From a virus: a DNA stretch of 64,000 nucleotides. The notes under the pieces are model-generated. The model was not told where the DNA came from. It searched no databases and saw only the letters and a list, made by a program, of their open reading frames with translations. A program made the translations under genes and the position numbers. The stretch lies in IMG/VR virus record IMGVR_UViG_3300032246_001783, positions 1 to 64,000 of that record; one strand, given 5' to 3'. Each line of letters opens with the position of its first letter. Position 1 is the stretch's first letter. Shown piece after piece: positions 8,186 to 60,413 of the stretch.

Positions 8186-8193
8186 GATAAATA
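8186..8193 (+). promoter_or_regulatory. T4-late-like promoter box (GATAAATA)
   Basis: GATAAATA ends 5 nt before the ATG at 8199, with no Shine-Dalgarno site between. It fits the T4 late -10 consensus TATAAATA. Confidence 0.75.
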
Positions 8194-8198
8194 AATTT

Positions 8199-8804
8199 AT
8201 GAGACTTTCTGAACTTACTGGTTATAAAAATCTCCCACAATATAAAACTCTCACTGCTGATCCTTCAATAAAGCAGTTCGTAGATGCAGCTGAACAAAAG
8301 GGATGGGTAATGTATGGTGCCGGTCAAAATGGTGTAGCTTTAAGGAATCCCGGTAAAGATTACATTTATAAAATATTCACTTCTCGCAGTGAGCATATCG
8401 GGTATCATGCGTGGGTCAACTGGGTCATACAGCATCCAAACAATCCTTATGTTCCTAAAATAAGTCGTCCCATACTAATACCCAATACTGCTCATGGACC
8501 TGCAGGTCGATTTCGGCGAGATATTTATTTTGTTCGAGTAGAAGTTCTCGATCCTGCTCGTGGAGAAAATGATCCTAGATTTGAGCGGTATATAAGTAAA
8601 ACATATGATAGAACAAACCCCAATCGCTTCTTTCGCAATTTTGCCGCAGAACCTACGTTATTTGATCATGCCAAGGGTAGTTTATATGACAATGACCCTG
8701 CGTTCAAAGAAATATGGAATTTTGCCAGTGATCAATTAGACCTAGGTATTGATAATGTAATGTTCAGGGGTAATCAGTTAGTGCTTACAGATCCAATGGC
8801 TTAA
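8199..8804 (+). CDS. Small protein-kinase-like protein, 201 aa
   Basis: Starts MRLSELTGYK at 8199, right after the late box. The layout matches a reduced kinase fold. A glycine-rich loop GAGQNGVAL lies at about residues 44-52, with a possible ATP-binding Lys in YIYKIF a few residues later. The C-terminus reads DLGIDNVMFR...LVLTDP: a D-x4-N catalytic-loop-like motif, then a DFG-like TDP. Kinase fold is inference from motif order; a catalytically dead relative is possible. Similar proteins occur as hypothetical virion-era genes in T4-like phages (recollection). Confidence 0.65.
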   Translation: MRLSELTGYKNLPQYKTLTADPSIKQFVDAAEQKGWVMYGAGQNGVALRNPGKDYIYKIFTSRSEHIGYHAWVNWVIQHPNNPYVPKISRPILIPNTAHGPAGRFRRDIYFVRVEVLDPARGENDPRFERYISKTYDRTNPNRFFRNFAAEPTLFDHAKGSLYDNDPAFKEIWNFASDQLDLGIDNVMFRGNQLVLTDPMA

Positions 8805-8929
8805 TATAGTTGTATTTAAAAAAACTTTGCTGTTAAATAGATTCAGTTCTTTAAAATTTTTTTGCAGAGTTTTTCACTCTGCTGCTAAGACCGGTGTGAA
8901 CCACAACCCCGTGGGCAACCCTTTATTTC

Positions 8930-9130
8930 CTATAGTATTAGATAAGGACCTGTATGTGCCATGCTCATCAGCAGCCACATTAGACTCATGGAGTTTGATG
9001 AACCGCACACTATGCTGTCTAGATTGGGATTAATTATACTGACCGCAAATCCTATCAAAAACAGGGGTGCTGGAGCATATTTGACCAATTGTTTTGCATA
9101 GTAAAATAACTGTAAACGGCCCCATTTCAT
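8930..9130 (-). CDS. Small two-pass membrane protein, 66 aa
   Basis: Read from the ATG at 9130, after a TAAATA box 8 nt upstream. The product begins MKWGRLQLFYYAKQ; two hydrophobic segments (about 28-41 and 49-66) flank a short loop with one Cys. Its 5' region overlaps nothing. A holin-like or envelope role is possible from topology alone. 8805-8929 to its left holds only A+T-rich sequence and a short inverted repeat. Confidence 0.6.
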   Translation of the reverse strand: MKWGRLQLFYYAKQLVKYAPAPLFLIGFAVSIINPNLDSIVCGSSNSMSLMWLLMSMAHTGPYLIL

Positions 9131-9138
9131 ATATAAGT

Positions 9139-9144
9139 TATTTA
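9139..9144 (-). promoter_or_regulatory. T4-late-like promoter box (TAAATA)
   Basis: TAAATA on the minus strand, 8 nt before the ATG at 9130. The gap is slightly longer than the usual 5 nt. Confidence 0.5.
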
Positions 9145-9180
9145 CACACACACATTAAGATTTTATATCTGTTCATGTGG

Positions 9181-9186
9181 TAAATA
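9181..9186 (+). promoter_or_regulatory. T4-late-like promoter box (TAAATA)
   Basis: TAAATA followed by 5 nt and the ATG at 9192; no ribosome site between. Confidence 0.65.
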
Positions 9187-9191
9187 TCTGT

Positions 9192-9443
9192 ATGAGAGCA
9201 TTATGGGATCTGCATCCACTACTGCCTTATCAAGCAGTGGCTCCGTGGCCCATTGTGGAAACCCGGGGTCATCCTGATTGGATTGCCAGTGTATTCTATG
9301 TAGAGTCTTGGTTAAATGACCATATAGGGTCACATTTTACCGATTGGACCTGGTACATGTGGAATCTCGAATCTCCCCATCTCTGTGGTGTAGGTTTTCG
9401 TAAAGAATCTAACTGTACACTATTTTTGCTTAAATTTTCTTAA
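9192..9443 (+). CDS. Hypothetical Trp-rich protein, 83 aa
   Basis: Start set at ATG 9192 because the late box lies exactly 5 nt upstream. The product begins MRALWDLHPL and has an unusual number of Trp, His and Pro residues and two Cys. No membrane segment or known motif. Probably a late gene. Confidence 0.62.
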   Translation: MRALWDLHPLLPYQAVAPWPIVETRGHPDWIASVFYVESWLNDHIGSHFTDWTWYMWNLESPHLCGVGFRKESNCTLFLLKFS

Positions 9444-9498
9444 AATCTATCTGTTGATTAACATAACATCTGAGTAACAGTTGTAATGTATATAAAGG

Positions 9499-9505
9499 CT
9501 AAATA
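9499..9505 (+). promoter_or_regulatory. Possible T4-late-like promoter with leader
   Basis: CTAAATA at about 9499-9505, some 45 nt before the ATG at 9550. Here a normal leader with an AAGGAG ribosome site exists, unlike at the other late boxes. Confidence 0.45.
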
Positions 9506-9549
9506 TTTTTCTAATCACATTTATGTGTATATAAAAAAGGAGTCATAAC

Positions 9550-9783
9550 ATGTCCGAGCAAAACAATTCACTAGCACAAGCCACAGCAGAAGCTGTAGAG
9601 GGTGCAGTCACAGGCAAGAAGTTCTGGATGAGCAAGACCTTTTGGGTCAATGTATTAGCCGGTGCAGCCATGCTGGCTCAAATGCGAGTAGGTTTTGTGG
9701 TCAGCCCTGAGTTACAGGCCATGGGTTTAACTGTGGTCAATCTAGTGCTACGCAAGATCACCAAAGAGCCAGTTACTTGGTAA
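9550..9783 (+). CDS. Small membrane protein, 77 aa
   Basis: Polar N-terminus rich in Ala, Gln and Glu, a basic KKFWMSKTFWVN segment, then hydrophobic stretches (about residues 34-52 and 56-68). AAAAAAGGAG precedes the start at ideal spacing. The topology resembles small phage membrane proteins of the holin kind, but no lysin lies next to it, so the function is open. Confidence 0.75.
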   Translation: MSEQNNSLAQATAEAVEGAVTGKKFWMSKTFWVNVLAGAAMLAQMRVGFVVSPELQAMGLTVVNLVLRKITKEPVTW

Positions 9784-9793
9784 TATAGTCCAA

Positions 9794-9816
9794 GGCTGTG
9801 GGTTAGTCCCACAGCC
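9794..9816. terminator. Hairpin between convergent genes
   Basis: Perfect 9-bp stem GGCTGTGGG / CCCACAGCC around TTAGT. It lies between two converging genes; the TAA of the minus-strand gene (9803-9805) is in the loop. No T run, so termination may be weak or bidirectional. Confidence 0.7.
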
Positions 9817-10483
9817 CTTGATAATACTTACCAAACAGCCGCAAGCCGTTATTGATACGGGTTTGATGTTTCTGTAATCCTTCGTGGTCAATTTTAAAAG
9901 TATCTTTAGGGCCCCGTTTCATTTCGTACATGGTGGGCTTGCCCTGTTCATTATGGGCACTGGGTTCAAAATAACTGTCATGCTCACCAGAATAGTATTG
10001 CTGTTCCCAGTCGCAATCAGGGTGTTGTTGTTCAAAAGTCCAAATTAGTTCACTCATTACCCAATCCCATCTACGATGTAGATTTTCATCAGTGTCCCAC
10101 TCATTTTCTTTGGGCTGTGCTTCTGTGGATCGCAGATTCATGCCCTCGGGTACATCCTCGTCGTCAACCAAGGCACTGCCCTTTTTGGTCGCTTGTAGTT
10201 GTTTGAGCATGGGTAAAATAATCATGCTCAGTGTACCATCCATGTTCCAAGTATCATAGTGGTCAATACGAATTTTTACTTTGCGGGTACGTTTTCGATC
10301 AAACCAATTGCAGAAATCATCCACCCATGTATTAGATAACCACTCACCTATGCGATCATGCAGCCGGTAATCCCACCGATCAATGAGATCATCGCTGGGA
10401 TAACGCTCGTGCCAAAAGAAAATGGTATCCACAATTTGATAAGGTCCCCAATAGTTTTTGTATGGTCCTATATACACTTTCAT
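9803..10483 (-). CDS. Conserved-type hypothetical phage protein, 226 aa
   Basis: Begins MKVYIGPYKNYWGPYQ. Very rich in Trp, Tyr, Asp and His, with no membrane segment. Proteins with this MKVYIGPY start and a length near 220 aa recur in T4-like environmental phages as hypothetical proteins (from memory, not searched). It converges on the small membrane gene and lies just downstream of psiE on the same strand, so the two may be cotranscribed. Function unknown. Confidence 0.8.
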   Translation of the reverse strand: MKVYIGPYKNYWGPYQIVDTIFFWHERYPSDDLIDRWDYRLHDRIGEWLSNTWVDDFCNWFDRKRTRKVKIRIDHYDTWNMDGTLSMIILPMLKQLQATKKGSALVDDEDVPEGMNLRSTEAQPKENEWDTDENLHRRWDWVMSELIWTFEQQHPDCDWEQQYYSGEHDSYFEPSAHNEQGKPTMYEMKRGPKDTFKIDHEGLQKHQTRINNGLRLFGKYYQGLWD

Positions 10484-10496
10484 GAGTTATTGTCCT

Positions 10497-10919: not shown

Positions 10920-10950
10920 TTAATTCACACTCTTACAGATAGAGAATAAC

Positions 10951-10979
10951 AGTATAACTTCTTTGTTTAGTTTGTGCAA
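10951..10979 (-). promoter_or_regulatory. Sigma70-like promoter of psiE
   Basis: On the minus strand: TTGCAC (10979-10974), 17 bp, TATACT (10956-10951), about 30 nt upstream of the psiE start. Confidence 0.75.
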
Positions 10980-11054
10980 TTTTTTAAATCAAAATATACC
11001 AACTAAATAAAAATTAACAAATACAATAACTAGAACAAATAGGTTTATTAGGTC

Positions 11055-12424: not shown

Positions 12425-12445
12425 AATTTAGAAAACATGTCTCAT

Positions 12446-12754: not shown

Positions 12755-12784
12755 TTGCGTATCCTATAGTTAGGTGTACATACA

Positions 12785-13224: not shown

Positions 13225-13552
13225 AATTGTTCCACTCGGTGAGAACGAATTTCAGACTGGCCCAGGCCTTGCCCTCCGCATCAATCTCTACGGTGACTTC
13301 AAAGCCACCTGAAGAACTCAAATACTGTTTACCCTCATTATCACGAGCCCACTCAATGCCCTCAATCAGGCGGCGACGAGCCTCGGTTCGCAGTTGGATA
13401 ACATCAGGAACAAAAACTTGTTCAGGTTTATCTGGAAAATGTTTATGCCAGGTCCAACCCAGATAGGTCATTACACTGTGAACACGAGCAAAGTCAAAGT
13501 TCTCCAGAATTTCCCAGACTACATTGTGATCGCTTTCAGTCAAGTTTGCCAT
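13217..13552 (-). CDS. Hypothetical protein, 111 aa
   Basis: Begins MANLTESDHNVVWEILENFD. Helical N-terminal half with a LGWTWH-x-FPD segment, beta-rich C-terminal half (FEVTVEIDAEGKAWASLKF). Similar proteins are known as hypotheticals in freshwater phages (recollection). Overlaps its neighbours by 8 and 17 nt. Confidence 0.72.
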   Translation of the reverse strand: MANLTESDHNVVWEILENFDFARVHSVMTYLGWTWHKHFPDKPEQVFVPDVIQLRTEARRRLIEGIEWARDNEGKQYLSSSGGFEVTVEIDAEGKAWASLKFVLTEWNNYE

Positions 13553-13823
13553 TTTTCAAATCCTCCGCTAATCGTTTGTGAAAAGTATCTTCGCCATCGT
13601 CGCCGCTGACCAGCCAGTCGATGCGTTGAGCGTAAATCAGAGCCTGATTCAACAGTTCAACACCACGCTTGAATTCCCTAATGGTTTCATCTGAGTATTC
13701 ACGACCCTTAGTATAGCCCCAATCGTTGAGTTCTTTAGAATGATTGTCCCGAATCAGTTGCTCAACAGCATCTGAGATGTAGCCTAACCGATACTGTTGG
13801 TATTCAAAAAAGCCCCCACTCAT
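13536..13823 (-). CDS. Hypothetical protein, 95 aa
   Basis: Helical, charged (begins MSGGFFEYQQYRLGYISDAV). ATG at 13823 overlaps the upstream stop. Not clearly related to the FGVEE paralogues that follow upstream. Unrecognised. Confidence 0.68.
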   Translation of the reverse strand: MSGGFFEYQQYRLGYISDAVEQLIRDNHSKELNDWGYTKGREYSDETIREFKRGVELLNQALIYAQRIDWLVSGDDGEDTFHKRLAEDLKNGKLD

Positions 13824-14041
13824 AGTTCAACTCCAAAATGTTTTTTAACCTCTGCACGGGAATGCCAAGGTTCATCATCTTCAGAAGGATCCAGTAAAAA
13901 ACTGTACACCTCGTCAATAATCAACTCGGCGAACTTTTCCATATGTTCCTCTACCGCCAACTCATGACCTTTATAGTTAACTGGCATATATGCTCCGAGA
14001 CCAGAGCGATCATAAAGAGTCAGTAAAAGTCGTTTTTTCAT
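13820..14041 (-). CDS. FGVE-tail paralogue, 73 aa
   Basis: Carries the family pattern: a helical KFAELIIDE segment (about residues 37-45), then a variable part and a C-terminus KKHFGVEL. Member of a tandem paralogous set (13820-14716). Neighbouring members overlap by 4 nt and share an almost identical junction sequence. Short phage proteins of this sort are common and unassigned; no enzyme motif is seen. Confidence 0.75.
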   Translation of the reverse strand: MKKRLLLTLYDRSGLGAYMPVNYKGHELAVEEHMEKFAELIIDEVYSFLLDPSEDDEPWHSRAEVKKHFGVEL

Positions 14042-14250
14042 TCTTCAACTCCGAAATGTTCTTTATACAATGGTAGCAACCGTTCAATAGCAGTGATTGA
14101 CAATTCTTTTGAATTTAATTTCAGACATTCCTTCACAATCAACTCGGCGAACTTTTCAATTGCCTTATGTTCATAGTCGTCCATTTCATCCCAGCATCCT
14201 TGTGCTGTTAATCCTGCATGATACATCAGGTCTTCTATTCGTTTGTTCAT
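14038..14250 (-). CDS. FGVE-tail paralogue, 70 aa
   Basis: Begins MNKRIEDLMYHAGLTAQGC; the core EKFAELIVKECLKL lies at about residues 32-45 and the C-terminus is HFGVEE. It shows the fullest form of the family: MNxRI N-terminus, FAELIVKEC helix, HFGVEE tail. ATGA junctions on both sides. Function unknown. Confidence 0.78.
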   Translation of the reverse strand: MNKRIEDLMYHAGLTAQGCWDEMDDYEHKAIEKFAELIVKECLKLNSKELSITAIERLLPLYKEHFGVEE

Positions 14251-14471
14251 TCTTCAACTCCGAAATATTTAATGATTAAGTCTAATGCCGCAATGTGTTG
14301 AACGTTGCCGGTCACATCTTCTGGATGCATCCAATAGCCATTAGGATTGGTGTCTGACTGTGGATTCTTTTCCCATCGTGCTAGTTCTTTTTTAAGATAC
14401 GCCCGTTGTTCTTTTAGCACAGCCAAAGCAATGCCGTCTGCAATTTCTGCATCTAATTCAATTTTTTTCAT
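14247..14471 (-). CDS. FGVE-tail paralogue (diverged), 74 aa
   Basis: Begins MKKIELDAEIADGIALAVLK. The central FAELIVKEC helix is not present, but the tail YFGVEE and the junction sequence are kept, so it may be a recombinant that shares only the end of the family. A His-Pro-Glu-Asp-Val-Thr-Gly segment precedes the tail. Unassigned. Confidence 0.7.
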   Translation of the reverse strand: MKKIELDAEIADGIALAVLKEQRAYLKKELARWEKNPQSDTNPNGYWMHPEDVTGNVQHIAALDLIIKYFGVEE

Positions 14472-15228: not shown

Positions 15229-15254
15229 AAGTTAACTCCGGTTTTCTAGTATAT

Positions 15255-18401: not shown

Positions 18402-18407
18402 TATTTA
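18402..18407 (-). promoter_or_regulatory. T4-late-like promoter box (minus)
   Basis: GATAAATA on the minus strand, 7 nt before the ATG at 18394; no ribosome site. Confidence 0.68.
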
Positions 18408-18412
18408 TCGAT

Positions 18413-18418
18413 TAAATA
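18413..18418 (+). promoter_or_regulatory. T4-late-like promoter box (plus)
   Basis: TTAAATA ends 5 nt before the ATG at 18424; back to back with the minus-strand box, only 5 bp apart. Confidence 0.72.
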
Positions 18419-22265: not shown

Positions 22266-22271
22266 TATTTA
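22266..22271 (-). promoter_or_regulatory. T4-late-like promoter box (minus)
   Basis: AATAAATA on the minus strand, 5 nt before the ATG at 22260. Confidence 0.75.
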
Positions 22272-33440: not shown

Positions 33441-35639
33441 TTATTCCAAACCAGCAAGTGTTCTAATTAGGCTGATTTCTTTTGGAACAATTTCTTTAGG
33501 TTGTCCACTTTTATCCAAAACATCGCCCTTGCCTAGGTCCAATCTGGCCTTGTGATTTTCGATTCTGGTTTTGAAGTCTTCCATCTTCTTTACATCGCCT
33601 TGTGCTTTTGCTTGATCATAAAACTGGGTCAATTGTTGTAATTGAGGGCTTGCTTGGTAGGCCTGATTGGCTAGATGATTATTTACTCCCCAAAGGCTCG
33701 CTGCTCCTGCTGCCAGATTACGAATCATGCCTTCATCAGTCATATTGTCAGAGACGTCGAGACTTTCGACTTTTGCTTTAACATTACCCAGCAACTCTTT
33801 TAAGCGTGCCAGTCCGTCATCCCCATGACCATCGGCTACATTACCATGCTTTTGGTGCCATTGCTGAGTAAGTTTTTCCATGAATTGTTCTGCAAGTTGG
33901 CGAGCCTGAACGCCTGCCTTTTCACCAAATTTTTCACTGATTTCTTTTTCTACATCCAATAAGATTCCTTCTTGACCATTAAACGGCCCCACAGTTGGAT
34001 TATCTCTGTTATATCTACTTTTAACAATTTCGGCAATTTGCTTAATCATAGTATTGCCTTGACCTTCTGCAACCGGTTGCTGTACAGGAGGTGCTGCTGT
34101 CGCTGCTGCTGGGGCCGGAGCAGGTGCTGCTGGGGCCGGAGTAGGTGCTGCCGGTTGTTGTACTTGTGGTTCAGGTTGAGGAGCAGGTTCGGCTTCGGGC
34201 TGGCTCAACCCTAACTCATTAGAAATTTCGTTTGCTACGTTTTCAAATCCATTAGCATTAGCCCATTCAATAAAACTAGTGATCGGTGTTTTACTAGAAT
34301 CATGTTCTGCATCTTTTGAGTCGTCCTGTAATCTTCCTTCGAGGTCGTCTATTTTTTCCTGTGGTAAAAATTCAGGACTAATTCCTAGACCTTGGAAAAA
34401 TTCAAATGCGGTTTGACCATCTACTCCAAATTCTAGGGAAGAGTTTTCCTTGATAGCGGATATTAATGATCTAATTTGATCATCGGTTAGTTGCCCTTGC
34501 TCGACTGCTTCGGCCCAGGATTCGAATTGTGAGAATGCGTCTTCTTTTACTTCCTCATCGCACTCACATTTGCTTTCCCACATTCCGCATTCGTCGCACT
34601 TTTCTTCTTCAGTTTCATTGACAAATTCTTCTAGATCTACAGTATTTGTTTCTCGCATGATCTTGTGTAGTAATGGAAAGAACCCTGCTAATTCTTCCTG
34701 AAAATTAGTTTGTGTAAATTTTTGTTTGTACTCTTCCATAGTGACATCATCTATTTCTAGACCGTCATCGTTCACTTCTTGCTCGTTAAATTCTGCAATC
34801 CAATTCTCGTAATGATGTCTCTTGCCCAGTGCTTCGATTTGAGCCTTAAGTTCAGTTAATCGACTTAAGGCACGATCTCTAATTCCAGTAGCATCATCGT
34901 GCAGGGTTTGGTGTTGAATTTTTTTCTGGAATTCACTCAATTGAGCAATTGCTTCACTCATACCAATAATTGCTTTACCTGCAGGATCATGGGGTATTCC
35001 ACCATGGTCAACGTGCTGTGCCATAGCAAATGCTCCGGCAGGATGAATAAATGGATATTTAAAACGCTCGCCGTCTTTATTCTGGATAAAAATAGCCTTA
35101 ATGTTTTTACGCTGACTTCTAGAGCCGGGAAACATATCATCTACCGGGCTACTATGTCTTACAATAACTTCTGTCTTGCCTCGAACTGCTCGGCTGGTTT
35201 TTTTGGTACTTCTATGGTTCCATCTAGATTCGTTCATGTTCATGGTTTCATCTTCCTTAGGGCCCTGGGTTGTGGCCAGATGTTGAAAATCATTTTTATC
35301 AAGATTACTTTTTGATATATCCCTAGTATCAAATCTTAGCAATCTACGCATAGCAAATAATCTCATTTCTTTAAGAAAATCATACCATATCTGCTTGGCA
35401 GGATCATCTTGATTTTCTGTTATACCCTGACTATAATAAATTTTTAAACTGCCTAGGTCGTTAAGACTGATACTAACTCGACCTAGATCGTTGCCCTCAT
35501 TAACAAAATCGAAATCAAAAAATCTTGCTTCTGCGGGGTCAATAGTAACTGCACCTGTTTCGTCACCCATTTCCAAATTGGTAAAACGGCTACGGACTTT
35601 GTCAAAAAGATCCTGGGATATTATTTGTATAGGTTTCAT
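33441..35639 (-). CDS. Large putative structural or morphogenesis protein, 732 aa
   Basis: Unrecognised. Parts seen: an N-terminal mixed region, a basic segment, a coiled-coil-like stretch (about 225-290), a Cys cluster CDECGMWESKCECDEE (about 347-362) able to bind zinc, and a Pro/Ala-rich linker (about 490-520) followed by a helical C-terminal domain. It starts 5 nt after a late box, without a ribosome site, and lies between gp17 and gp32. The position and late box suggest a virion or head-related protein. No catalytic motif. Confidence 0.75.
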   Translation of the reverse strand: MKPIQIISQDLFDKVRSRFTNLEMGDETGAVTIDPAEARFFDFDFVNEGNDLGRVSISLNDLGSLKIYYSQGITENQDDPAKQIWYDFLKEMRLFAMRRLLRFDTRDISKSNLDKNDFQHLATTQGPKEDETMNMNESRWNHRSTKKTSRAVRGKTEVIVRHSSPVDDMFPGSRSQRKNIKAIFIQNKDGERFKYPFIHPAGAFAMAQHVDHGGIPHDPAGKAIIGMSEAIAQLSEFQKKIQHQTLHDDATGIRDRALSRLTELKAQIEALGKRHHYENWIAEFNEQEVNDDGLEIDDVTMEEYKQKFTQTNFQEELAGFFPLLHKIMRETNTVDLEEFVNETEEEKCDECGMWESKCECDEEVKEDAFSQFESWAEAVEQGQLTDDQIRSLISAIKENSSLEFGVDGQTAFEFFQGLGISPEFLPQEKIDDLEGRLQDDSKDAEHDSSKTPITSFIEWANANGFENVANEISNELGLSQPEAEPAPQPEPQVQQPAAPTPAPAAPAPAPAAATAAPPVQQPVAEGQGNTMIKQIAEIVKSRYNRDNPTVGPFNGQEGILLDVEKEISEKFGEKAGVQARQLAEQFMEKLTQQWHQKHGNVADGHGDDGLARLKELLGNVKAKVESLDVSDNMTDEGMIRNLAAGAASLWGVNNHLANQAYQASPQLQQLTQFYDQAKAQGDVKKMEDFKTRIENHKARLDLGKGDVLDKSGQPKEIVPKEISLIRTLAGLE

Positions 35640-35644: not shown

Positions 35645-35650
35645 TATTTA
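35645..35650 (-). promoter_or_regulatory. T4-late-like promoter box (minus)
   Basis: AATAAATA on the minus strand, 5 nt before the ATG at 35639. It overlaps the last bases before the gp17 stop at 35651. Confidence 0.75.
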
Positions 35651-37237
35651 TTAAAAATTCGAAATGTAAATGGGCATAGGCATAACAAACTCGTCCTCTC
35701 GTTCTTCCCGCAATTTGTCATAAATCGCAGGATCCCATTCTTGCAGCATCACGGTCATACGAACTGCTAACAACATACTGCTAACTAGGTCATCATTACT
35801 GCCTGTTTTACCTTCAAAACTTATGCCCTTGGCCACATAGGTCTTAAGTTCTGATATAAGAGGTTTAGAATTGATTATGATTCTGTTGCTTTCTATTAGA
35901 TGTTTAAGTTTGGCACAAATAGAAATTTTGCTGCTGTGTGTGGTATTAAATCCTTTGCGGAATCTACGCACATGTCCTTTTTTAATAGGTTCGCTAAGAA
36001 AAAGTCCCGGTATACTTTCTTCGCCTATCTCGCTAATAGCCACTAGTGCTGCTTCACCGACAGCATTGTTTTCTACTGAATAATATATGCTGGCCTGCTG
36101 TCCTTTGGCCGCACATTCATCATTGATATAATTGCAAAGATCTCTCAGGATACGGACCTGTGCCTGTATAGTAGTTAGATTATGCTGCCACTCTGCCACT
36201 TGAGTAAAACTAGGTATTTCTAATATTTGTATAGCAGCAGGGTCGCCACCTGTACCCAAACTAGGATCCAGTGCAACAATATAGGTACTTGAGGGATTAA
36301 TTTTTTTGTACCAGCGTGCTTGCCCCATTTTCATTATAGGATCTGTGCCTTCAAGTTCTGCAAGTTTAAGACTGTTGATTAATGTTTCATCAAAAATCAA
36401 AAATTCGCAGGCGTGTTCTCTCCGGAACCTCTCCTCCCCTACCCTGCTACGCTCAGTATCTGCCCATTTTTCATCACGATCTGGATGTTCATTCCATATA
36501 GCCAAGTAGGGAAAAAATCCGTTTCTACCCAATTCTGTTTGATTGCCAAATTCATCAAATCGTTTGTTTGCCTCTTTCCAGATTAGAGAGAATTGATCCT
36601 CATCACTGTTTGGTGTGCTGGTTATAATGGCCTTACCACCAGTGGCCAGCGTGGGCGAAATACTGGTCCAAAATTCAACGGCGATATTGGGCTCAACATA
36701 GGCAAACTCGTCTAGGTATAATAGCGAAATACTCATACCCCGGCCGGTTGTTTCTGTTGTTGTTTGTGCTACTATTCTACTGCCATTTTCAAACTCTATA
36801 CTCTGCTTGTTATAACTGGTTACACCTGCTCGTACATTGTCAGGGCAAGTTTCATATGCATATCGTAATCGTTGCATAATTTCTTGTGCACCTGTGTACT
36901 TGTGGGCAGCAATAAGAATTGTACTATCCGGTACAAACATAGCATACCAAAGTAAGTAACCTACGGCTGTGGTGGTTTTTCCCATCTGCCTCCCTAACAT
37001 ATTCACGCTAAATCTATGTGTGTGATAACTGTGCAGCAGTTTAGTTTGATATGCATAGGCTTGATATTGTATTTTGCCTTTTACCGGATGCTGGATGAAA
37101 AAGAAATTGTTTAAAAAATAGTCAGCCCCAGTATCAGGATCCATACATTTAGAAAGATCTTCAATGTCTTTTTCAGTGTATTTCTGCGTACTATGAGCAG
37201 TCTTTACCAGTTTATTGTCAACGTTTTTACTAGCCAT
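35651..37237 (-). CDS. 17: Large terminase, gp17
   Basis: 528-aa packaging motor. The ATPase domain has Walker A GRQMGKTT at 82-89 and Walker B LLYLDEFA near 172-179 with the catalytic Glu; the C-terminal RNase H-like nuclease has IVALDPSLGTGGD near 330-342 and NDDLVSSMLLAV near 490-501. It cuts concatemeric DNA and pumps it into the prohead. Preceded by a terminator and a late box 5 nt from the ATG, so it has its own late transcript. Confidence 0.95.
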   Translation of the reverse strand: MASKNVDNKLVKTAHSTQKYTEKDIEDLSKCMDPDTGADYFLNNFFFIQHPVKGKIQYQAYAYQTKLLHSYHTHRFSVNMLGRQMGKTTTAVGYLLWYAMFVPDSTILIAAHKYTGAQEIMQRLRYAYETCPDNVRAGVTSYNKQSIEFENGSRIVAQTTTETTGRGMSISLLYLDEFAYVEPNIAVEFWTSISPTLATGGKAIITSTPNSDEDQFSLIWKEANKRFDEFGNQTELGRNGFFPYLAIWNEHPDRDEKWADTERSRVGEERFRREHACEFLIFDETLINSLKLAELEGTDPIMKMGQARWYKKINPSSTYIVALDPSLGTGGDPAAIQILEIPSFTQVAEWQHNLTTIQAQVRILRDLCNYINDECAAKGQQASIYYSVENNAVGEAALVAISEIGEESIPGLFLSEPIKKGHVRRFRKGFNTTHSSKISICAKLKHLIESNRIIINSKPLISELKTYVAKGISFEGKTGSNDDLVSSMLLAVRMTVMLQEWDPAIYDKLREEREDEFVMPMPIYISNF

Positions 37238-37242
37238 AATAT

Positions 37243-37248
37243 TATTTA
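37243..37248 (-). promoter_or_regulatory. T4-late-like promoter box (minus)
   Basis: GTAAATA on the minus strand, 5 nt before the gp17 ATG at 37237, and only a few bases after a terminator. Confidence 0.78.
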
Positions 37249-37251
37249 CTG

Positions 37252-37278
37252 AAAAAAATAGCCTCCGAAGAGGCTATT
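37252..37278 (-). terminator. Strong intrinsic terminator with UUCG loop (minus)
   Basis: 9-bp stem AATAGCCTC / GAGGCTATT closed by TTCG on the minus strand, followed by a T run. Ends transcription of the 259-aa gene just before the gp17 late box. Confidence 0.95.
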
Positions 37279-37297
37279 TGGTGGGAATGAAATAAAA

Positions 37298-38079: not shown

Positions 38080-38667
38080 TTATTTCCTTGGGTCTGGTGC
38101 CTGCTGAACAGGACTTTTTTCGTTTATAGCACTGTCTGTATTATATTTGGCAGCACCTTCCGTGGGTATTTCTTCACCGCGTTCTTTGCGTTGCAATTTA
38201 AGAATATCATTTAATTCTTTTACAAAACCGCTGTTATATTTGTCACCATAAAAATCTTCAAACTTAGCATTACCTGCTTCTTTATAATCTGGGTCGTCTA
38301 GTAGTGCACCGCTTCTAGGTTCTTCAATATGCTGATATTCTTCAGTAGGCTCACCGGGACGACGAACTGCTAAATGACTCTTGTTAATACCGCAATGATT
38401 AGCAATATACTCAGTAAGTTCAAACTGTGTAGTAGGATAATCAAGTGTGACTTCATATATATTAACTTCGCAGTTCTTAACTTGAGGGAAATCTAAAGGA
38501 AGATCTTGAATCGGAGTTTTACCCGACTTCTTAAATCCCGCAACTGAATACTTACTTAGAGCAGTTTTTAAATTAGATTCTTGCTCGGCAGTAAAATCTC
38601 CAGCAATTTTAATGCGGAAGTCATATTGTTTTTTAGATTCTGTTAGGTGTTCTTTAAATGATTTCAT
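38080..38667 (-). CDS. Hypothetical late protein, 195 aa
   Basis: Begins MKSFKEHLTESKKQYDFRIK, a start common in head- and core-associated proteins of T4-like phages. A ferredoxin-like alpha/beta N-terminal part (about 15-90) is followed by a disordered C-terminus. Late box 7 nt before the ATG. Structural or prohead role is inferred. Confidence 0.73.
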   Translation of the reverse strand: MKSFKEHLTESKKQYDFRIKIAGDFTAEQESNLKTALSKYSVAGFKKSGKTPIQDLPLDFPQVKNCEVNIYEVTLDYPTTQFELTEYIANHCGINKSHLAVRRPGEPTEEYQHIEEPRSGALLDDPDYKEAGNAKFEDFYGDKYNSGFVKELNDILKLQRKERGEEIPTEGAAKYNTDSAINEKSPVQQAPDPRK

Positions 38668-38673: not shown

Positions 38674-39153
38674 TTATTTATTCAAGTTCTTGAGTTTTTC
38701 CAGTATGCTGTTTCGATCAGTAACAATATACCCTTCACCTTCCATGGTGTTACCACTACCCTCGCCGTGTTTTTTATCTATGGCCAATTTTTTCAATTGT
38801 AGATCAACCATTTTTAACTTTTTGTCAATCTTGTTTGTTTTAGCAGTAATGGCAGCACTCATCATCTGTGCAGCAACTTCGAACATACGGGCACCATATC
38901 GGGCTTCTACGTTCATACCGAGATTCATAAGATCATCGTAGGCCTGTTCTGCCTTGGCCGCTAGTGCATCAAGTTCTGCGTCACTGACATCACCTAGTCC
39001 CTTGACTCTAGGCAATGCAGCAGCGATTTTATCAAACTCTTCTAGTTTTTCTTGAAGATCAATAGTGGGCACAGGAACATTATCAGCAGGCTCCGGGGCT
39101 ATTACTGGCTCGGCATCAGGTAAATTTAAGATTTCTTCTAATCGTTTTGTCAT
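38674..39153 (-). CDS. 16: Small terminase, gp16
   Basis: 159 aa, all-helical, with an acidic Pro-rich N-terminus. LMNLGMNVEARYGARMFEVAAQMM (about 86-109) followed by a Lys-rich helix is the gp16 pattern; T4 gp16 is 164 aa. It forms the ring that recognises DNA and stimulates gp17. Separated from gp17 by two other late genes, whereas in T4 the two are adjacent. Confidence 0.8.
   Translation of the reverse strand: MTKRLEEILNLPDAEPVIAPEPADNVPVPTIDLQEKLEEFDKIAAALPRVKGLGDVSDAELDALAAKAEQAYDDLMNLGMNVEARYGARMFEVAAQMMSAAITAKTNKIDKKLKMVDLQLKKLAIDKKHGEGSGNTMEGEGYIVTDRNSILEKLKNLNK
38675..38680 (-). promoter_or_regulatory. T4-late-like promoter box (minus)
   Basis: AATAAATA on the minus strand, 7 nt before the ATG at 38667. 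Confidence 0.68.
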
Positions 39154-41044: not shown

Positions 41045-41050
41045 TATTTA
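41045..41050 (-). promoter_or_regulatory. T4-late-like promoter box (minus)
   Basis: GCTAAATA on the minus strand, 5 nt before the ATG at 41039. Confidence 0.76.
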
Positions 41051-41779: not shown

Positions 41780-41809
41780 TTAATGCTCCTTAATCTTTAA
41801 TATTTATCT

Positions 41810-44770: not shown

Positions 44771-44870
44771 TATTTAATCTCCTAAATGGATTACTTTGAG
44801 TTATTTACCATTAACAGACAAAAAAAGTGGATTAAATACAGTCATAAAGGGCAATAAAAGGGCGGGAGTT

Positions 44871-46674: not shown

Positions 46675-46680
46675 TATTTA
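46675..46680 (-). promoter_or_regulatory. T4-late-like promoter box (minus)
   Basis: GATAAATA on the minus strand, 5 nt before the gp13 ATG. Back to back with the gp14 late box. Confidence 0.78.
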
Positions 46681-46696: not shown

Positions 46697-46702
46697 TAAA
46701 TA
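46697..46702 (+). promoter_or_regulatory. T4-late-like promoter box (plus)
   Basis: GCTAAATA on the plus strand, 7 nt before the gp14 ATG at 46710. Confidence 0.72.
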
Positions 46703-46709: not shown

Positions 46710-47903
46710 ATGCCAAAACTCAGTCTTTACCGTCCCGAAAAGGGCAATGATTTTAAGTTTTTAGACCGCACTATCAATGAACAATTTCAAGTGGGCGGCA
46801 CTGATGTGTTTTTGCACAAATACCTTGGGCCAGTGAACCCTGAAGAGGGCACTAGCACCCCGACTACTCCAAATAATGCAAATTCTATACCAGAATTAGG
46901 TATACAAGATGTGCTATTCATGGAGAATAGAGACCGGCATTATGAACCCGATATATATGTCATTAGAGGAATTTATACATTACAGGATATAGATTTTAAT
47001 TTGAGCCAATTCGGCCTGTTCCTACAAAATGACAATATAATGATTGTGTTCCATTTGAGGGGAACCGTAGATTCAATTGGTAGAAAAATCATGGCCGGTG
47101 ATGTTATCGAACTACCACATCAGAAAGACGAATATGCACTAGATGAATCTCTAGTATCTCTTAAAAGATTTTATGTAGTATCCGAAGTAACAAGACCAGC
47201 AAGCGGTTACAGTCAAACTTGGTACCCGCATTTGATAAGATGCAAATGTGCTCCGTTAGTAGATACACAAGAATTTAAAGAAATTTTAGATCAAGATTCA
47301 GGTGCCGAAGATGGTACTACCATCCGAGATCTATTGTCTATGCAACAAAAGAGTTTAGAAATCAACGAGCAGATCATAGCACAGGCATTAGAAGATACAG
47401 GAAAAAGTGGATACGACACTGAACATCTTTATGTTGTACCAAGATTAAAAGATGGATTAGTTGACATTGCTGATACTAGTAATACCGAAGCCGATGCCAG
47501 TGTAGATAACCCTGCATTAGACGCCAGTATTGTATTAAATAGTCCTACAAAAAATTATTATGTAGGATATCTAACTGGAGACGGTATTCCGCCCAATGGG
47601 GCTCCCTATGGTTTTGGTATAACATTTCCAAGTAATCCGGTTGAAGGACAATTTTATCTAAGATCAGACTATTTGCCCAATCGCTTATTTAGGTTCGATG
47701 GGCGACATTGGGTCAAGTTTGAAGATAATGTTAGAATGACCACAAGTACCAAAGGTGGAACACAAACTCTAGATCCTGATTTAAACAGACAGACTCAAAA
47801 GTCCGGGTTTATTAATAATACAAATACTTCAACTATTGCTGGCGAAGTTGTGGTTGAGAAACAGGCACTTAGCAAAGCACTAAGGCCCAAAGCAGACAAT
47901 TAA
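46710..47903 (+). CDS. 14: Neck protein, gp14 (with C-terminal extension)
   Basis: 397 aa (T4: 256 aa). KGNDFKFLDRTINEQFQVGG and the FLHKYLGP segment, then QDVLFMENRDRHYEPDIYVI (about 66-85), DFNLSQFGLFLQNDN and AGDVIELPHQKDEYALDE are the gp14 core. A C-terminal extension from about residue 235 holds one W/F module (VEGQFYLRSDYLPNRLFRFD, about 311-330, then HWVKF) of the type repeated in gp18. With gp13 it forms the neck. Confidence 0.87.
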   Translation: MPKLSLYRPEKGNDFKFLDRTINEQFQVGGTDVFLHKYLGPVNPEEGTSTPTTPNNANSIPELGIQDVLFMENRDRHYEPDIYVIRGIYTLQDIDFNLSQFGLFLQNDNIMIVFHLRGTVDSIGRKIMAGDVIELPHQKDEYALDESLVSLKRFYVVSEVTRPASGYSQTWYPHLIRCKCAPLVDTQEFKEILDQDSGAEDGTTIRDLLSMQQKSLEINEQIIAQALEDTGKSGYDTEHLYVVPRLKDGLVDIADTSNTEADASVDNPALDASIVLNSPTKNYYVGYLTGDGIPPNGAPYGFGITFPSNPVEGQFYLRSDYLPNRLFRFDGRHWVKFEDNVRMTTSTKGGTQTLDPDLNRQTQKSGFINNTNTSTIAGEVVVEKQALSKALRPKADN

Positions 47904-53347: not shown

Positions 53348-53348
53348 A

Positions 53349-54838: not shown

Positions 54839-54861
54839 TTGTAATTCTCCTGAACACTATT

Positions 54862-54890: not shown

Positions 54891-54895
54891 GAGTT

Positions 54896-57079
54896 TTATG
54901 GCAAATCTGGGCTTTGTATGGCAGCAGTGTGATAATAACCGCAAGAACCATACACTGTGCTTTTCCAAGAGGTCAGCGTGCCTACTTGTACAGGGCTAGA
55001 TGTGTTTGAACCGCTACCGCTATTTCCATTAGCCAACTGTCCGTAATTATTTCTTCCCCAACTCCACAATGTGCCGTCAGTCTTTATGGCTGTAGTCCAC
55101 CCATACCCGCAACTTATCTGCTTCCAATTAGATAACGAACCCACCTGCACCGGACTACTTTGATCAGTGGTGTTCCACGAACCCAATGCCCCATCACTAT
55201 TTTGCCCCCACATCCACAGTTTACCATCATTGGTGATTGCGGCCATATGATGGCGACCTCCGATGACAGATCTCCATGTGGTCAATGCGCCCACCTGTAC
55301 TGGACTACTGTAGTTAATGGTATTGCCAACCCCAAGTTCACCACTACTATTTGTTCCCCAAGTCCACAGTGTGCCGTCAGTTTTTATAGCGGCAGAAGAT
55401 CGGGCGCTGGCCGCTACCTGTTTCCACGTAGTTAATGAGCCTACTTGCACCGGGCTGCTATATGCGTCCTCAGAAGTATTCAATCCTAGCCATCCCCCTA
55501 CACCAAAGTATGCGTTTTCTCCCCAAGCCCATAACGTACCGTCATTTTTTGTAGCCAGCACATGAAAACTACCTGCAGAAATCTGTTTCCAATCAGTTAA
55601 GGTACCTACCTGTACAGGACTACTGTAGTCGACAATGTTACCTTGACCTAGTTCTCCATATCCATCGCGGCCCCAAGCCCACATCGTGCCATCAGTCTTT
55701 AAAGCAACTACAGTACCATATCCACAAACTAAACTCTTCCATGAGGTCAACGTTCCCACCTGCACCGGACTGCTACGATCAGCGGTGTCTCCCTGACCTA
55801 ATTGTCCGAAACCATTCCAACCCCAAGTCCACAGTGTGCCGTCAGTTTTTATAGCGGCTCCCGATCGATAACCACAACTGACCTGTCGCCAAGTGGTTAG
55901 TGTTCCGACCTGAACCGGACTATAGGTATCACTAATACTATTTTGCCCAGTTGCTCCGTAATCACCAATACCCCAAGTCCACAGGCCTGCAGTGAGATAC
56001 TGTTCTTTTCTTAGAAACATATCTCCCATATCCACTACAGTGGAGGTAGCAGCACCGTTGGCATCTCGAATAGGGAATCTTATGTTAGCGGGAAATACTG
56101 TGCCGCTAGCAGAAGGTTCTTCCCAGGATCCAATAGATGGTAGTGTAAGGCTTCTCGCACGGCCCACGATATCGAGGTCACTGGTATAGGTCGCATCTCG
56201 TGTGCCGCCTCGAATCAGGGGCGAGGATTTTCTCAATCTAAAATTCCCTGTACCTGTTGTGGTGTCAACAAATTGTGCAGATGTAGTTAACCCTGTTAAG
56301 GAGTTTGATCCCCAGTTTGTAGGGCCTGAGGATAAGTTAGTGGCATTATTATTGCTGCTAGTCGAGAATGTTACTCCACTGCCGCCGGTGAACAGCGTAT
56401 CGAAACCAAATATGGCGCAATTTTTTACAATTGGATTGGAATATTCGTTAATAATTGCAGTTCGAGCAGAATAAGCACCTGTATTAATAATAGTCGAGTT
56501 GATAATAGCACTTGCATTAGCAATGCCATAGCAGCCTTTTGATACAAAAAGACAATTTATCACTACATTTGTAAACCAAGATATTAAACTATAGGCAGCA
56601 GACACTCCATCGTAGTTTGAAGTAATGATGCAATTTTTAAGTGTCGAATTTTGCCCCAACGAGTCACTAGTAATAACACCTGAACCACTATATAGAAAAG
56701 TAGTCTGCGTTTGTTTTAGTTGTAAGCCTTCTATAACGGTATACGCACATTGATTACCTAAAACTCCGTGTGCTCCATAAAGTGCGATACCTTTTATTGG
56801 ATCATAATTTGCAGGTCCTGTTGCTGATCTGTCTGAGAATCCTAATCCCGGATAAGGCTTAATACGAATGAATCTAGTTGCGTCAGTAGTTTTACCACTA
56901 ATACTGGTCCCGTAGTTTCCTGCATTCCATTCATAGTTACCCGCAGCACTTTCAGCAATTAAAATATCCCATTGCTGATCAGCAGTGACTAGATTAGAAG
57001 GTACAGCGGCCAATGCGGCAGCCAGTGATGTGTAATCACCTCCAGTATATCGAACAATTTTGGTTACAACGGTAGGCAT
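54896..57079 (-). CDS. Tail protein: beta-helix plus RCC1 propeller, 727 aa
   Basis: The N-terminal about 330 residues are a parallel-beta-helix type (many short repeats such as VIEGLQLKQTQ, STLKNCIITSN, VKNCAIFGF). A linker with NIRFPIRDANGAATSTVVDM follows, then from about 365 RCC1 repeats of about 50 residues (TDGTLWTWGWNGFGQLGQGD...SSPVQVGTLTSWK), about seven, enough for one propeller. Probably a virion adhesin or receptor-binding protein. One of three RCC1 genes in this region. Confidence 0.85.
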   Translation of the reverse strand: MPTVVTKIVRYTGGDYTSLAAALAAVPSNLVTADQQWDILIAESAAGNYEWNAGNYGTSISGKTTDATRFIRIKPYPGLGFSDRSATGPANYDPIKGIALYGAHGVLGNQCAYTVIEGLQLKQTQTTFLYSGSGVITSDSLGQNSTLKNCIITSNYDGVSAAYSLISWFTNVVINCLFVSKGCYGIANASAIINSTIINTGAYSARTAIINEYSNPIVKNCAIFGFDTLFTGGSGVTFSTSSNNNATNLSSGPTNWGSNSLTGLTTSAQFVDTTTGTGNFRLRKSSPLIRGGTRDATYTSDLDIVGRARSLTLPSIGSWEEPSASGTVFPANIRFPIRDANGAATSTVVDMGDMFLRKEQYLTAGLWTWGIGDYGATGQNSISDTYSPVQVGTLTTWRQVSCGYRSGAAIKTDGTLWTWGWNGFGQLGQGDTADRSSPVQVGTLTSWKSLVCGYGTVVALKTDGTMWAWGRDGYGELGQGNIVDYSSPVQVGTLTDWKQISAGSFHVLATKNDGTLWAWGENAYFGVGGWLGLNTSEDAYSSPVQVGSLTTWKQVAASARSSAAIKTDGTLWTWGTNSSGELGVGNTINYSSPVQVGALTTWRSVIGGRHHMAAITNDGKLWMWGQNSDGALGSWNTTDQSSPVQVGSLSNWKQISCGYGWTTAIKTDGTLWSWGRNNYGQLANGNSGSGSNTSSPVQVGTLTSWKSTVYGSCGYYHTAAIQSPDLP

Positions 57080-57080
57080 A

Positions 57081-57407
57081 TTAACTTAACATTTCCTGGT
57101 TATATAATCCTATAAGCGGAGAATCAAGATCAGGTTTCTTAAACTCACAATCCCAATAGGCTTCTTCACTGATTACTTCTATCTCATGAAACAATCCAGC
57201 GGCCACTAAAAATCTGCAAGGACCCGCATACACAGTTTCTTTTACTGGCTCTCCATCTAAACTATACTTATACTTGACTCGTATTGTGGTGCCGGGGTGA
57301 ACATAACTATCGTGATCGACCCAATGTCTATGGCCACGGTAGACAAATCCCTGCGGTAGTGGACCGTGGCAGCGTATCCAAATATCTCCTTGATCAACTT
57401 CTCGCAT
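57081..57407 (-). CDS. Hypothetical small tail-region protein, 108 aa
   Basis: Begins MREVDQGDIWIRCHGPLPQG; beta-rich with several His and Trp (GFVYRGHRHWVDHDSYVHPG at about 20-39). The His pattern could suit a metal or cupin-like fold, but nothing decides it. Between two RCC1 genes, so probably a tail accessory or chaperone. Confidence 0.72.
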   Translation of the reverse strand: MREVDQGDIWIRCHGPLPQGFVYRGHRHWVDHDSYVHPGTTIRVKYKYSLDGEPVKETVYAGPCRFLVAAGLFHEIEVISEEAYWDCEFKKPDLDSPLIGLYNQEMLS

Positions 57408-57415
57408 AGTTGTCC

Positions 57416-60400
57416 TTATACTTGTCCATCGGATATGGCTACAATATGATAGGTTCCAGCGGCGGCTGATTTCCAGGTAGTTAGTGAACCTACCTGCACT
57501 GGACTGCTATATTTAACGGTATTACCTTGTCCTAGTTGTCCAGAATCATTGTTCCCCCATAGCCACAATGTACCATCAGTTTTAATAGCACATACTGTAT
57601 TGCCTGAAAAGACTTTGGTGCCTCCTGATACAGTTTTCCAATTAGTCAATGATCCAACCTGTATCGGGCTGCTATAGTTAACGGTATTACCTACACCTAC
57701 TTGCCCATTATTGTTATAACCCCAGGCCCACAATGTGCCGTCAGTTTTTGTAGCATAACTAGTATAACCGCCAGCAGCAACATATTTCCAAGTATTCAAA
57801 GAACCTATTTGAACCGGGCTAGCATATACTACAGTGTTATTTAGACCTAAGCTGCCATAAGTATTATATCCCCATGCCCATAGTGTGCCGTCTGTTTTTA
57901 CTGCAACAGTATGTGAATAACCGCAGGCCAATTGCCCCCAATTAGTATCCGCACCCACTTGTACAAAGGTAGTACCGGCGGACGCACTCAGGTATCCGAT
58001 TGAATAACCACATCCCCATAATGTGCCATTGGTCTTTATACCAAAGGTATTATATCCTTGCGGAGCAACGTATCGCCAATCAGTATCGGTACCGGCTTGG
58101 ACCGGGCTGCTACGACCAGAGGTATCGCCTAAACCTAACCCTCCGTATGAATTATTCCCTCCCCAAGCATAAAGTTTTCCGTCAGTTGTTATGGCAAAAG
58201 AATTTCTATACCCTGCTGAAATATATTTCCAGGTAGTTAAGGACCCTACCTGCACAGGACTACTATAGTTGACAATATTATTCACACCCAATTGGCCAGA
58301 TCCGTTATACCCAACGCTCCATAATGTTCCGTCATTTTTGATCATAAGAGACCAATCATTTCCTGCAAAAATACTCTTCCACGAGGTTAATGATCCAACC
58401 TGTAAAGGACTGCTATAGTTAATGCTATTGTTGCCTACTCCTAACTGTCCGTAGAAGTTGCCGCCCCAAGCATACAGGCCAGGACTGGTTCTACCTGGCA
58501 CCAGATTGGGATATACATCTAGACCATAGTCCTTGCTAACATAATAACTGCCCATATCAACTACAGCACCGGTCTGTGGGTTTCGACTCTGTATACCAGT
58601 GACCAGTCTATTAGACAAATACTCCCAGGCCCCTATAGTGGGTGCTGCGGTGCTGCGGGGTCGACCTATAATGTCCGCATCTCCTGTGTACTGTTGATCA
58701 CGAACCGCATTATTAATTAAAGAACTGTATTCTCTAATTCTATAATCTTCAGAACCAGAGGCGATATTATTAAATTGACTGCTGGTGGTTAGGCTTACCA
58801 CAGTGCCGGTACTGGTCCAACCTATGGTAGATAAATTAGTGGCGTTATTGGTAGAACGACCTTGATCTATTTTGCTAATGCCATTAGTAAAGGTATTCCA
58901 ATTAAACACCGCACAATTCTTTACTACATTTCCTCCGGCGTAGGCATCGTGAAATTTAAATGCATACCAAGATCCGGCGCCAATAAGTGTGGAATTTCTA
59001 AATAGTGAATTGTACCCGAGATACTCACTGGTCAATGAAACATCAGGGGAGGTAACAGTTACTAGACAATTATTAACCACCGTTGCGTTATGAAACGGAA
59101 CGCCAATAGTGGCCTGTAGGATACAAGAATCATATATAACGCCCGCACCACTTGACATAATAAAACCTCCTGCGCCGGAAGTTTTTCTAATCTGTAAACC
59201 GCTAAGAAGAGTTCGGGGAGTAGTAGTATAACTCATCACAGAAGTATAGCTATCAGCTAATGCTATTGATACACCGGTATTGGTATTATAAGCTAGAGCA
59301 GTTCCGCCAGATATATTATCTCTAAAACTTTGTCCCGGGGCAGCAGTTAACCAAAAATATCTAGCAGCATCTGACCCAGCAGGCGGCGTGCCAACTCCGG
59401 CATTATTGTACGTCCATTCTCCCCCGGGATTAGAACCTTCCTTGAACAGTACTCCCTTCCAAACCCAATCTTTAGTGGTCAGCGTAGGTGCTGCTTCGGC
59501 CCAACTTTTTACTGTAGAATAAGATCGTTGCGTGGTTGCTGAACCGGTACTAGGTGCCGCAGTGGTAGAAAATGGATCTCCTACCACTGTTAATGTAGTG
59601 CCTGTAACTGCCGTGATCACATAACTGTTAGCGCCAGTGACCAACTTGTCCCCTACATTGGTCACAGTGGAGGTTGCGGTTAGTGTAACTTTATAAGCAT
59701 AACTGTGTCCATCTACAGTAGCAGACTCCTGTGTGCTCACAGTCACAGTACTGGTCGAACGTGTGCCTATAGAAAGAGGCACAGTAGCCACACTTAACGT
59801 TTGTATAACTAAAGAAGTAGCGGTTTGTGAATTGCCGCCCCCATTATCAAATATTTGATAACTGGCCCAATTTCCCTGTGGTAGAGGATACGGATCGGTA
59901 TATGATGTAGAATAAGTATTACCTCCATATGTAATAGAAGCAGTTACAGTACCGGGTATGGTACAATCTAGTACCACTGAGGTTAACAGGTTAGTCCACC
60001 AAGTGCCTGCTGTACTAATACTAGATACATTGGAGCTAACACCGTTTTCTACTCGAAGGATTGAAGGAGATTCTATGCCGCCCCCCCTTAGATAAAATTG
60101 ATAATAACTACTTGCGCTGTCTGCACTTGATGCGTTGGCATTCAAAAGAAAATAAAAGTTTCCGTTATTCAATCCCTTCACACTAATAGCAGACACACGC
60201 TGCGAAGGAGTATTAACACGGTAGGCTAGTGGATAATAATTGCTTCCTACAATACCACCTGTAGCACTTCGATAGTGACCGCCTCCATAGTACTGAGTCT
60301 GCTGCCACTTATTACCTAATTTATTAATAGGATCAGGATAGGTACCGTTGAGTGTGCTAGTTCCTGTGGAACTTTGTTGGACAAGGGTTACTAATGGCAT
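57416..60400 (-). CDS. Tail protein: beta-sandwich, beta-helix and RCC1, 994 aa
   Basis: Three parts. Residues about 1-290 are Thr/Ser-rich beta-sandwich-like; about 300-630 a beta-helix type with repeated NNxLV/STLIG strands; from about 655 RCC1 repeats (KNDGTLWSVGYNGSGQLGVN...YSSPVQVGSLTTWK), about seven. A late box lies 7 nt before the start. Likely a fibre or receptor-binding protein; its RCC1 part is paralogous to the genes at 54896 and 61099. Confidence 0.85.
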   Translation of the reverse strand: MPLVTLVQQSSTGTSTLNGTYPDPINKLGNKWQQTQYYGGGHYRSATGGIVGSNYYPLAYRVNTPSQRVSAISVKGLNNGNFYFLLNANASSADSASSYYQFYLRGGGIESPSILRVENGVSSNVSSISTAGTWWTNLLTSVVLDCTIPGTVTASITYGGNTYSTSYTDPYPLPQGNWASYQIFDNGGGNSQTATSLVIQTLSVATVPLSIGTRSTSTVTVSTQESATVDGHSYAYKVTLTATSTVTNVGDKLVTGANSYVITAVTGTTLTVVGDPFSTTAAPSTGSATTQRSYSTVKSWAEAAPTLTTKDWVWKGVLFKEGSNPGGEWTYNNAGVGTPPAGSDAARYFWLTAAPGQSFRDNISGGTALAYNTNTGVSIALADSYTSVMSYTTTPRTLLSGLQIRKTSGAGGFIMSSGAGVIYDSCILQATIGVPFHNATVVNNCLVTVTSPDVSLTSEYLGYNSLFRNSTLIGAGSWYAFKFHDAYAGGNVVKNCAVFNWNTFTNGISKIDQGRSTNNATNLSTIGWTSTGTVVSLTTSSQFNNIASGSEDYRIREYSSLINNAVRDQQYTGDADIIGRPRSTAAPTIGAWEYLSNRLVTGIQSRNPQTGAVVDMGSYYVSKDYGLDVYPNLVPGRTSPGLYAWGGNFYGQLGVGNNSINYSSPLQVGSLTSWKSIFAGNDWSLMIKNDGTLWSVGYNGSGQLGVNNIVNYSSPVQVGSLTTWKYISAGYRNSFAITTDGKLYAWGGNNSYGGLGLGDTSGRSSPVQAGTDTDWRYVAPQGYNTFGIKTNGTLWGCGYSIGYLSASAGTTFVQVGADTNWGQLACGYSHTVAVKTDGTLWAWGYNTYGSLGLNNTVVYASPVQIGSLNTWKYVAAGGYTSYATKTDGTLWAWGYNNNGQVGVGNTVNYSSPIQVGSLTNWKTVSGGTKVFSGNTVCAIKTDGTLWLWGNNDSGQLGQGNTVKYSSPVQVGSLTTWKSAAAGTYHIVAISDGQV

Positions 60401-60407
60401 AATGTAT

Positions 60408-60413
60408 TATTTA
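60408..60413 (-). promoter_or_regulatory. T4-late-like promoter box (minus)
   Basis: TTAAATA on the minus strand, 7 nt before the ATG at 60400. Confidence 0.68.

Follow-up and report, generated by a model that had tools for sequence, protein, structure and literature searches.

In bacteriophage T4, the reference system for late transcription, late mRNAs carry Shine-Dalgarno (SD) leaders, and the leaderless mRNAs known from phages mostly belong to individual regulatory genes. The T4 late promoters depend on gp55, gp33 and gp45, have the motif TATAAATA and serve late virion genes on either strand. In the jumbo phages CBB and GAP32, a late-like motif, ATAAATA, has been described (PMC5259590). 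The sequence analysed here, referred to as the window, consists of 64 kb of the 71,591-base IMG/VR virus record IMGVR_UViG_3300032246_001783, which is itself a fragment. The window shares with T4 the TAAATA core and late virion genes on either strand, and a gp55-family sigma is found in its group as well. In the window, TAAATA boxes stand a few nucleotides (nt) upstream of the ATG of many late genes. The sequence evidence points to late promoters so near the AUG that many low-copy virion mRNAs are very probably leaderless or nearly so, with the abundant virion proteins made from SD-leadered mRNAs.

The pattern TAAATANNNNNATG has eight matches in the window, one at each of the N5 starts listed below. 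In dinucleotide shuffles of the window, the mean is 1.42 and the maximum 5, and 0/100 shuffles reach eight. When gaps of 0–40 nt are scanned before ATGs that open an open reading frame (ORF) of at least 60 amino acids (aa), eight sites fall at gap 5, four at gap 7 and 0–2 at each other gap. The eight N5, four N7 and one N8 boxes are all where a preliminary description of this DNA had placed them. As that description also held, no SD is seen in the spacers of these thirteen boxes. TAAATA shows no overall enrichment in the window (54 found, 77 expected), and exact TATAAATA, the full T4 late promoter motif, has only two matches. The signal is therefore the placement of the box, and TAAATA as a generally enriched motif was rejected, being under-represented overall. 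The features are given below; the fetched loci are approximately 160 IMG/VR loci of relatives.

8188–8193, plus strand: TAAATA box, N5 before ATG 8199 (201 aa ORF); no orthologue in the fetched loci
9139–9144, minus strand: TAAATA box, N8 before ATG 9130 (66 aa)
9181–9186, plus strand: TAAATA box, N5 before ATG 9192 (83 aa); 61 nt from the divergent gene 9130−
18402–18407, minus strand: TAAATA box, N7 before ATG 18394 (225 aa, phrog_36119); divergent with 18424+
18413–18418, plus strand: TAAATA box, N5 before ATG 18424 (AlgH-like, PF02622)
22266–22271, minus strand: TAAATA box, N5 before ATG 22260 (virion structural, phrog_14467)
35645–35650, minus strand: TAAATA box, N5 before ATG 35639 (732 aa virion protein, phrog_13484)
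37243–37248, minus strand: TAAATA box, N5 before ATG 37237 (terminase large subunit, gp17)
37256–37279, minus strand: intrinsic terminator hairpin and T-run, immediately before the gp17 box
38675–38680, minus strand: TAAATA box, N7 before ATG 38667 (virion structural, phrog_14802)
41045–41050, minus strand: TAAATA box, N5 before ATG 41039 (tail-tube-like paralogue, phrog_4542/13438)
41801–41806, minus strand: TAAATA box 21 nt upstream of the tail tube ATG 41779, SD AAGGAG; leadered contrast
44802–44807, minus strand: TAAATA box 31 nt upstream of the tail sheath ATG 44770, SD TAGGAG; leadered contrast
46675–46680, minus strand: TAAATA box, N5 before ATG 46669 (head-tail adaptor gp13, phrog_211)
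46697–46702, plus strand: TAAATA box, N7 before ATG 46710 (virion structural, phrog_11591)
60408–60413, minus strand: TAAATA box, N7 before ATG 60400 (994 aa, RCC1-like repeat protein); no orthologues in the fetched loci

The two leadered boxes, both with an SD, were not part of the preliminary description. A further TAAATA box, at 9500–9505 (+), precedes the SD-led gene 9550 (AAGGAG) by 44 nt and possibly marks another leadered late unit. For gp13, an upstream in-frame ATG at 46711 was considered as the start and rejected, as the orthologues favour 46669.

The spacing is conserved in relatives, as an alignment of their upstream sequences, the check put forward in the preliminary description, makes clear. 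Orthologue counts refer to distinct upstream sequences, and either TAAATA or TAAGTA is counted as a box. A box lies 4–7 nt from the ATG in 63/75 gp17, 74/78 gene 35639− and 67/77 gene 41039− upstreams, and 5–7 nt from it in 31/36 upstreams of gene 46710+. The gp17 upstreams of dozens of relatives read TAAATA-N5-ATG (some N4), with different spacer bases. The counterpart of 22260− is a gene of the same size with gap 5 in a 322-kb relative, at 142652. In the gp17 tree, the clade that includes the window has 37 members, every one of them leaderless, and across all 91 rows the label must have changed at least five times. In the distant relatives L048, L070, L082 and L085, TAAGTA replaces TAAATA at the same 5-nt gp17 spacing, so in these the box sequence drifts while the spacing holds.

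The tail sheath and tail tube orthologues have a different arrangement. None is leaderless (0/72 and 0/75), and an SD is present in 71/72 and 75/75, respectively. Their boxes lie 15–39 nt from the ATG, except for one sheath upstream with TAAATA at gap 0. The structural genes have a box, whereas the early genes generally do not: no box occurs within 45 nt in 45/48 uvsX and 55/56 gp32 upstreams. Overall, the leaderless genes encode terminase, neck, head-closure and baseplate parts and the tail-tube-like paralogue; the SD-led genes encode sheath, tube and major capsid; the portal gene is mixed. The leaders of the sheath, tube and capsid genes rule out a universal leaderless strategy.

The most informative orthologues are those of gp13 and gene 38667−, which occur in both arrangements. 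About half have a box at 4–7 nt. Between orthologues the box shifts from 5–8 to 15–30 nt, and an SD is then present. For gene 38667−, an SD occurs in 1/30 leaderless orthologues and in 35/39 of the others; for gp13, it occurs in 2/22 with a near box and in 16/17 with the box farther away.

In the relatives, the box-to-ATG distance is bimodal, with a sharp peak at 4–7 nt, few sites at 8–14 nt and a second, broader group from 15 nt upwards. The peak sites are without an SD and the broader group has one. Among non-redundant genes, an SD within −20 to −4 is found at 14/203 starts with gaps of 4–8 nt versus 175/280 with gaps of at least 15 nt (p 3e-39), and at gaps 4–8 none lies inside the spacer (0/203). 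In leadered genes, 47–76% of spacers between box and ATG contain an SD, compared with 13–33% of shuffled spacers. The start codons ATG, GTG and TTG number 120, 3 and 2 at gap 5 versus 280, 23 and 68 at gaps of at least 15 nt (Fisher p 4e-8). The near-exclusive use of ATG at gap 5 matches leaderless initiation, because AUG is required there. In the 8–14 nt interval, where few sites occur, a leader would be too short for an SD, which also makes a long leader unlikely.

The base preceding the start codon differs between the two classes. At gap 5, position −1 is a pyrimidine (T or C) in 118/120 genes versus 151/280 leadered genes (p 1e-22; 54% at SD-led starts). A pyrimidine-purine step is preferred at transcription starts, and the −1 pyrimidine at gap 5 agrees with a +1 on the A of ATG. 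The gap 4 sites have the pyrimidine-purine step at positions 4/5 after the box, and the gap 7 sites have a second such step at positions 4/5 (85% and 85%). A predicted +1 about 6 nt past the box would fit the pyrimidine-A step at positions 5/6 after it. Numbering of the T4 late box begins at −13 (PMC2988020); a box of 8 bp would then extend to −6, and with N5 the A of AUG would be +1. The geometry predicts a 5' UTR of 0–5 nt. The earlier placement of +1 on or beside the ATG is thus favoured for the N5 genes by their geometry and −1 pyrimidine. The N7 genes are probably not fully leaderless, and may have a 3-nt leader, AYY-AUG.

The sequences upstream of the boxes leave little room for a long leader. 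A terminator (hairpin and T-run) abuts the box in 44/63 leaderless gp17 upstreams and in 40/67 leaderless upstreams of gene 41039−. In divergent gene pairs 27–64 nt apart, both boxes lie inside the interval. Only 29 nt separate the ATGs of 18394− and 18424+, and 40 nt separate gp13 (46669−) from 46710+. In the relative L289, the 18394−/18424+ pair (88% protein identity) keeps spacings of 7 and 5 although the intervening sequence has changed, and the 9130−/9192+ pair is also present, with gaps of 7 and 8. Terminators at the box and tightly spaced divergent pairs make a long leader unlikely.

In the proposed mechanism, TAAATA would be the −10-like element of a T4-type late promoter read by the host RNA polymerase with a phage gp55-family sigma. 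In one class of late genes the box is fixed 4–5 nt (sometimes 6–8 nt) from the start codon, and transcription would begin on the A of the AUG (N4, N5) or, at N7, up to approximately 3 nt earlier. Ribosomes would use the leaderless route for these mRNAs, with 70S or 30S-IF2 complexes recognising a 5'-terminal AUG; kasugamycin is reported to spare leaderless translation (PMC5230787). Sheath, tube and major capsid form another late class, which has a leader with a strong SD. We propose that leader type tunes protein dose, leaderless mRNAs serving low-copy and leadered mRNAs high-copy proteins. The leaderless part of the preliminary description is retained on the strength of the conserved spacing, −1 pyrimidine, ATG-only starts, SD absence and the terminators or divergent genes upstream; its systematic character is not, as the strategy is mixed.

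Components of the late promoter machinery are present in the relatives. A gp55-family late sigma (phrog_12791) is found in 10/15 relative contigs and in PA5oct and Atu_ph07, as is phrog_234; the relative contigs without a gp55-family match are fragments. The TAAATA core is invariant by the definition of the search, and the two bases before it are G/A-rich rather than TA. A homologue of ribosomal protein bS21 is encoded in the 322-kb relative (L196, record position 37144–37296, minus strand) and also in HTVC008M, PA5oct and Atu_ph07. A link between bS21, which lies near the anti-SD region, and the leader strategy is conceivable, yet PA5oct has bS21 without leaderless late genes.

Several observations weigh against late promoters of this kind. 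A gp55 gene is not detected in the window's own 71.6-kb contig, a fragment. T4-type gp45 (phrog_223) is present in T4 and HTVC008M, but the jumbo relatives and PA5oct gave no match to it; a diverged clamp is possible. Approximately 18% of gp17 orthologues are without the leaderless arrangement, and for six window genes the fetched loci contain orthologues rarely or not at all. The dosage proposal draws on a handful of families and on T4 copy numbers. The rule used to choose orthologue starts prefers ATGs close to a box. The same rule gives no leaderless sheath or tube and nearly no boxes in uvsX and gp32, which answers the concern that it produces the pattern.

Other explanations of the boxes were considered. 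The boxes could be late promoters from which leaderless RNA is a minor product, with translation mainly from read-through mRNAs by re-initiation or coupling. Coupling is possible at 35639−, which begins 11 nt past the gp17 stop codon, and at 38667−, just after its upstream gene. Read-through is nevertheless improbable as the main source, given that a terminator shields gp17 and 41039− in most relatives and that nothing is encoded on the same strand within tens of nt upstream of the genes in divergent pairs. As the leaderless orthologues have no SD, a read-through mRNA would also have no ribosome site.

If TAAATA near the ATG were instead an AU-rich, Kozak-like translation-initiation element on a longer leader, it would likewise keep a fixed distance to the ATG, and AU-rich starts replace the SD in some phyla, such as the SD-less Bacteroidetes (PMC6847099). 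However, the same box also occurs 15–40 nt upstream with an SD in between, and where it has moved in orthologues an SD has been gained. Terminators run up to the box, the early genes have no box, and a −1 pyrimidine followed by A fits a transcription initiator. These phages also use the SD elsewhere (146/147 sheath and tube upstreams). A translation element is accordingly very unlikely. Composition has the least to offer: the genome is AT-rich (GC 41%) and AT-rich DNA before an ATG might yield TAAATA at a fixed spacing, but no shuffle reaches the observed count, the pattern is kept at 48% GC and over 120 non-redundant genes, and it is absent from the more AT-rich T4 and PA5oct. Chance can be set aside almost entirely.

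The source phage is a T4-superfamily jumbo phage and not a close T4 relative. Among named phages, the jumbo phages PA5oct (sheath 36%, gp17 55% identity), Phosso and Atu_ph07 come closest. The window encodes tail sheath (986 aa), tail tube, terminase gp17, head-tail adaptor gp13, a gp4-type head-closure protein, uvsX, gp32, helicases and two RCC1-repeat proteins. The RCC1-repeat proteins (727 and 994 aa) are adjacent amid late genes, at 54896–60400 (−). Consecutive small genes at 13536–14471 (−) have a near-identical start region, GGAGTTGAAGA-ATG, suggesting a small-gene operon in which a translation-initiation cassette recurs. As for the host, no terminase relative was confirmed among bacterial genome contigs. 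The 322-kb relative, at 48% GC, has 12 gap-5 sites, and its peptide deformylase gene starts with TAAATA-N5-ATG (L209, 696–1193, minus strand).

The distribution of the pattern among other phages is restricted. No peak at short gaps is found in the T4, PA5oct and Syn9 genomes or in the sampled regions of 121Q, Atu_ph07, Phosso, Vibrio 2.275 and XbC2. Nor do pattern counts reveal a noteworthy excess in RM378, P-SSM2, RaK2, phiM12, PhiW-14, KVP40 or Cr30. A trait of all T4-like phages is therefore rejected. The cultured SAR11 phage HTVC008M has 12 gap-5 sites, with a −1 pyrimidine in 12/13 gap 4–5 sites. The gap-5 sites coincide with annotated gene starts, those of gp2, gp4, gp48, gp53 and gp3 homologues among them, and the genes include baseplate wedge, tape measure and tail-completion homologues; gp13 is at gap 8. 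The HTVC008M gp2 and gp4 genes are divergent, with 26 nt between them. The reversed box ATAAAT is not an independent control, since it is contained in ATAAATA one base off.

A mixed leaderless and leadered late strategy, as predicted from these sequences, is a well supported refinement of the T4-type late promoter system. There is about an even chance that, in the jumbo clade and separately in SAR11 myophages, leader type splits a late regulon with one gp55 motif, the box-to-AUG distance alone selecting the ribosomal route and setting virion stoichiometry. If correct, one of the most common groups of phages would have a second way of expressing late genes, through conserved leaderless structural mRNAs, and would provide a natural system for comparing how ribosomes handle leaderless and SD mRNAs with the same sigma in the same cell. 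Many start-codon annotations would be fixed. Late-promoter prediction in pelagimyophages has been reported as unsuccessful (PMC7029224), and leaderless late genes would explain the failure there of promoter finders that expect a leader. As HTVC008M is cultured, direct testing is possible.

A literature search, with most subscription journals outside its scope, found no report of leaderless late phage transcripts. HTVC008M (Kyanoviridae, a Pelagibacter phage) resembles the window phage in its TAAATA-N5-ATG late genes, although it belongs to a distant lineage and has a much smaller genome. The ATAAATA of CBB and GAP32 has the same core, at structural genes of related phages, but no leaderless spacing is reported there. 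T4 boxes lie at least 14 nt, and mostly 21–32 nt, upstream of the ATG, whereas many of those described here lie at 4–7 nt without an SD. The mRNAs of lambda cI and other repressors start at the AUG and have no SD. Unlike these single regulatory genes, the genes described here form a class of late structural genes with one promoter geometry.

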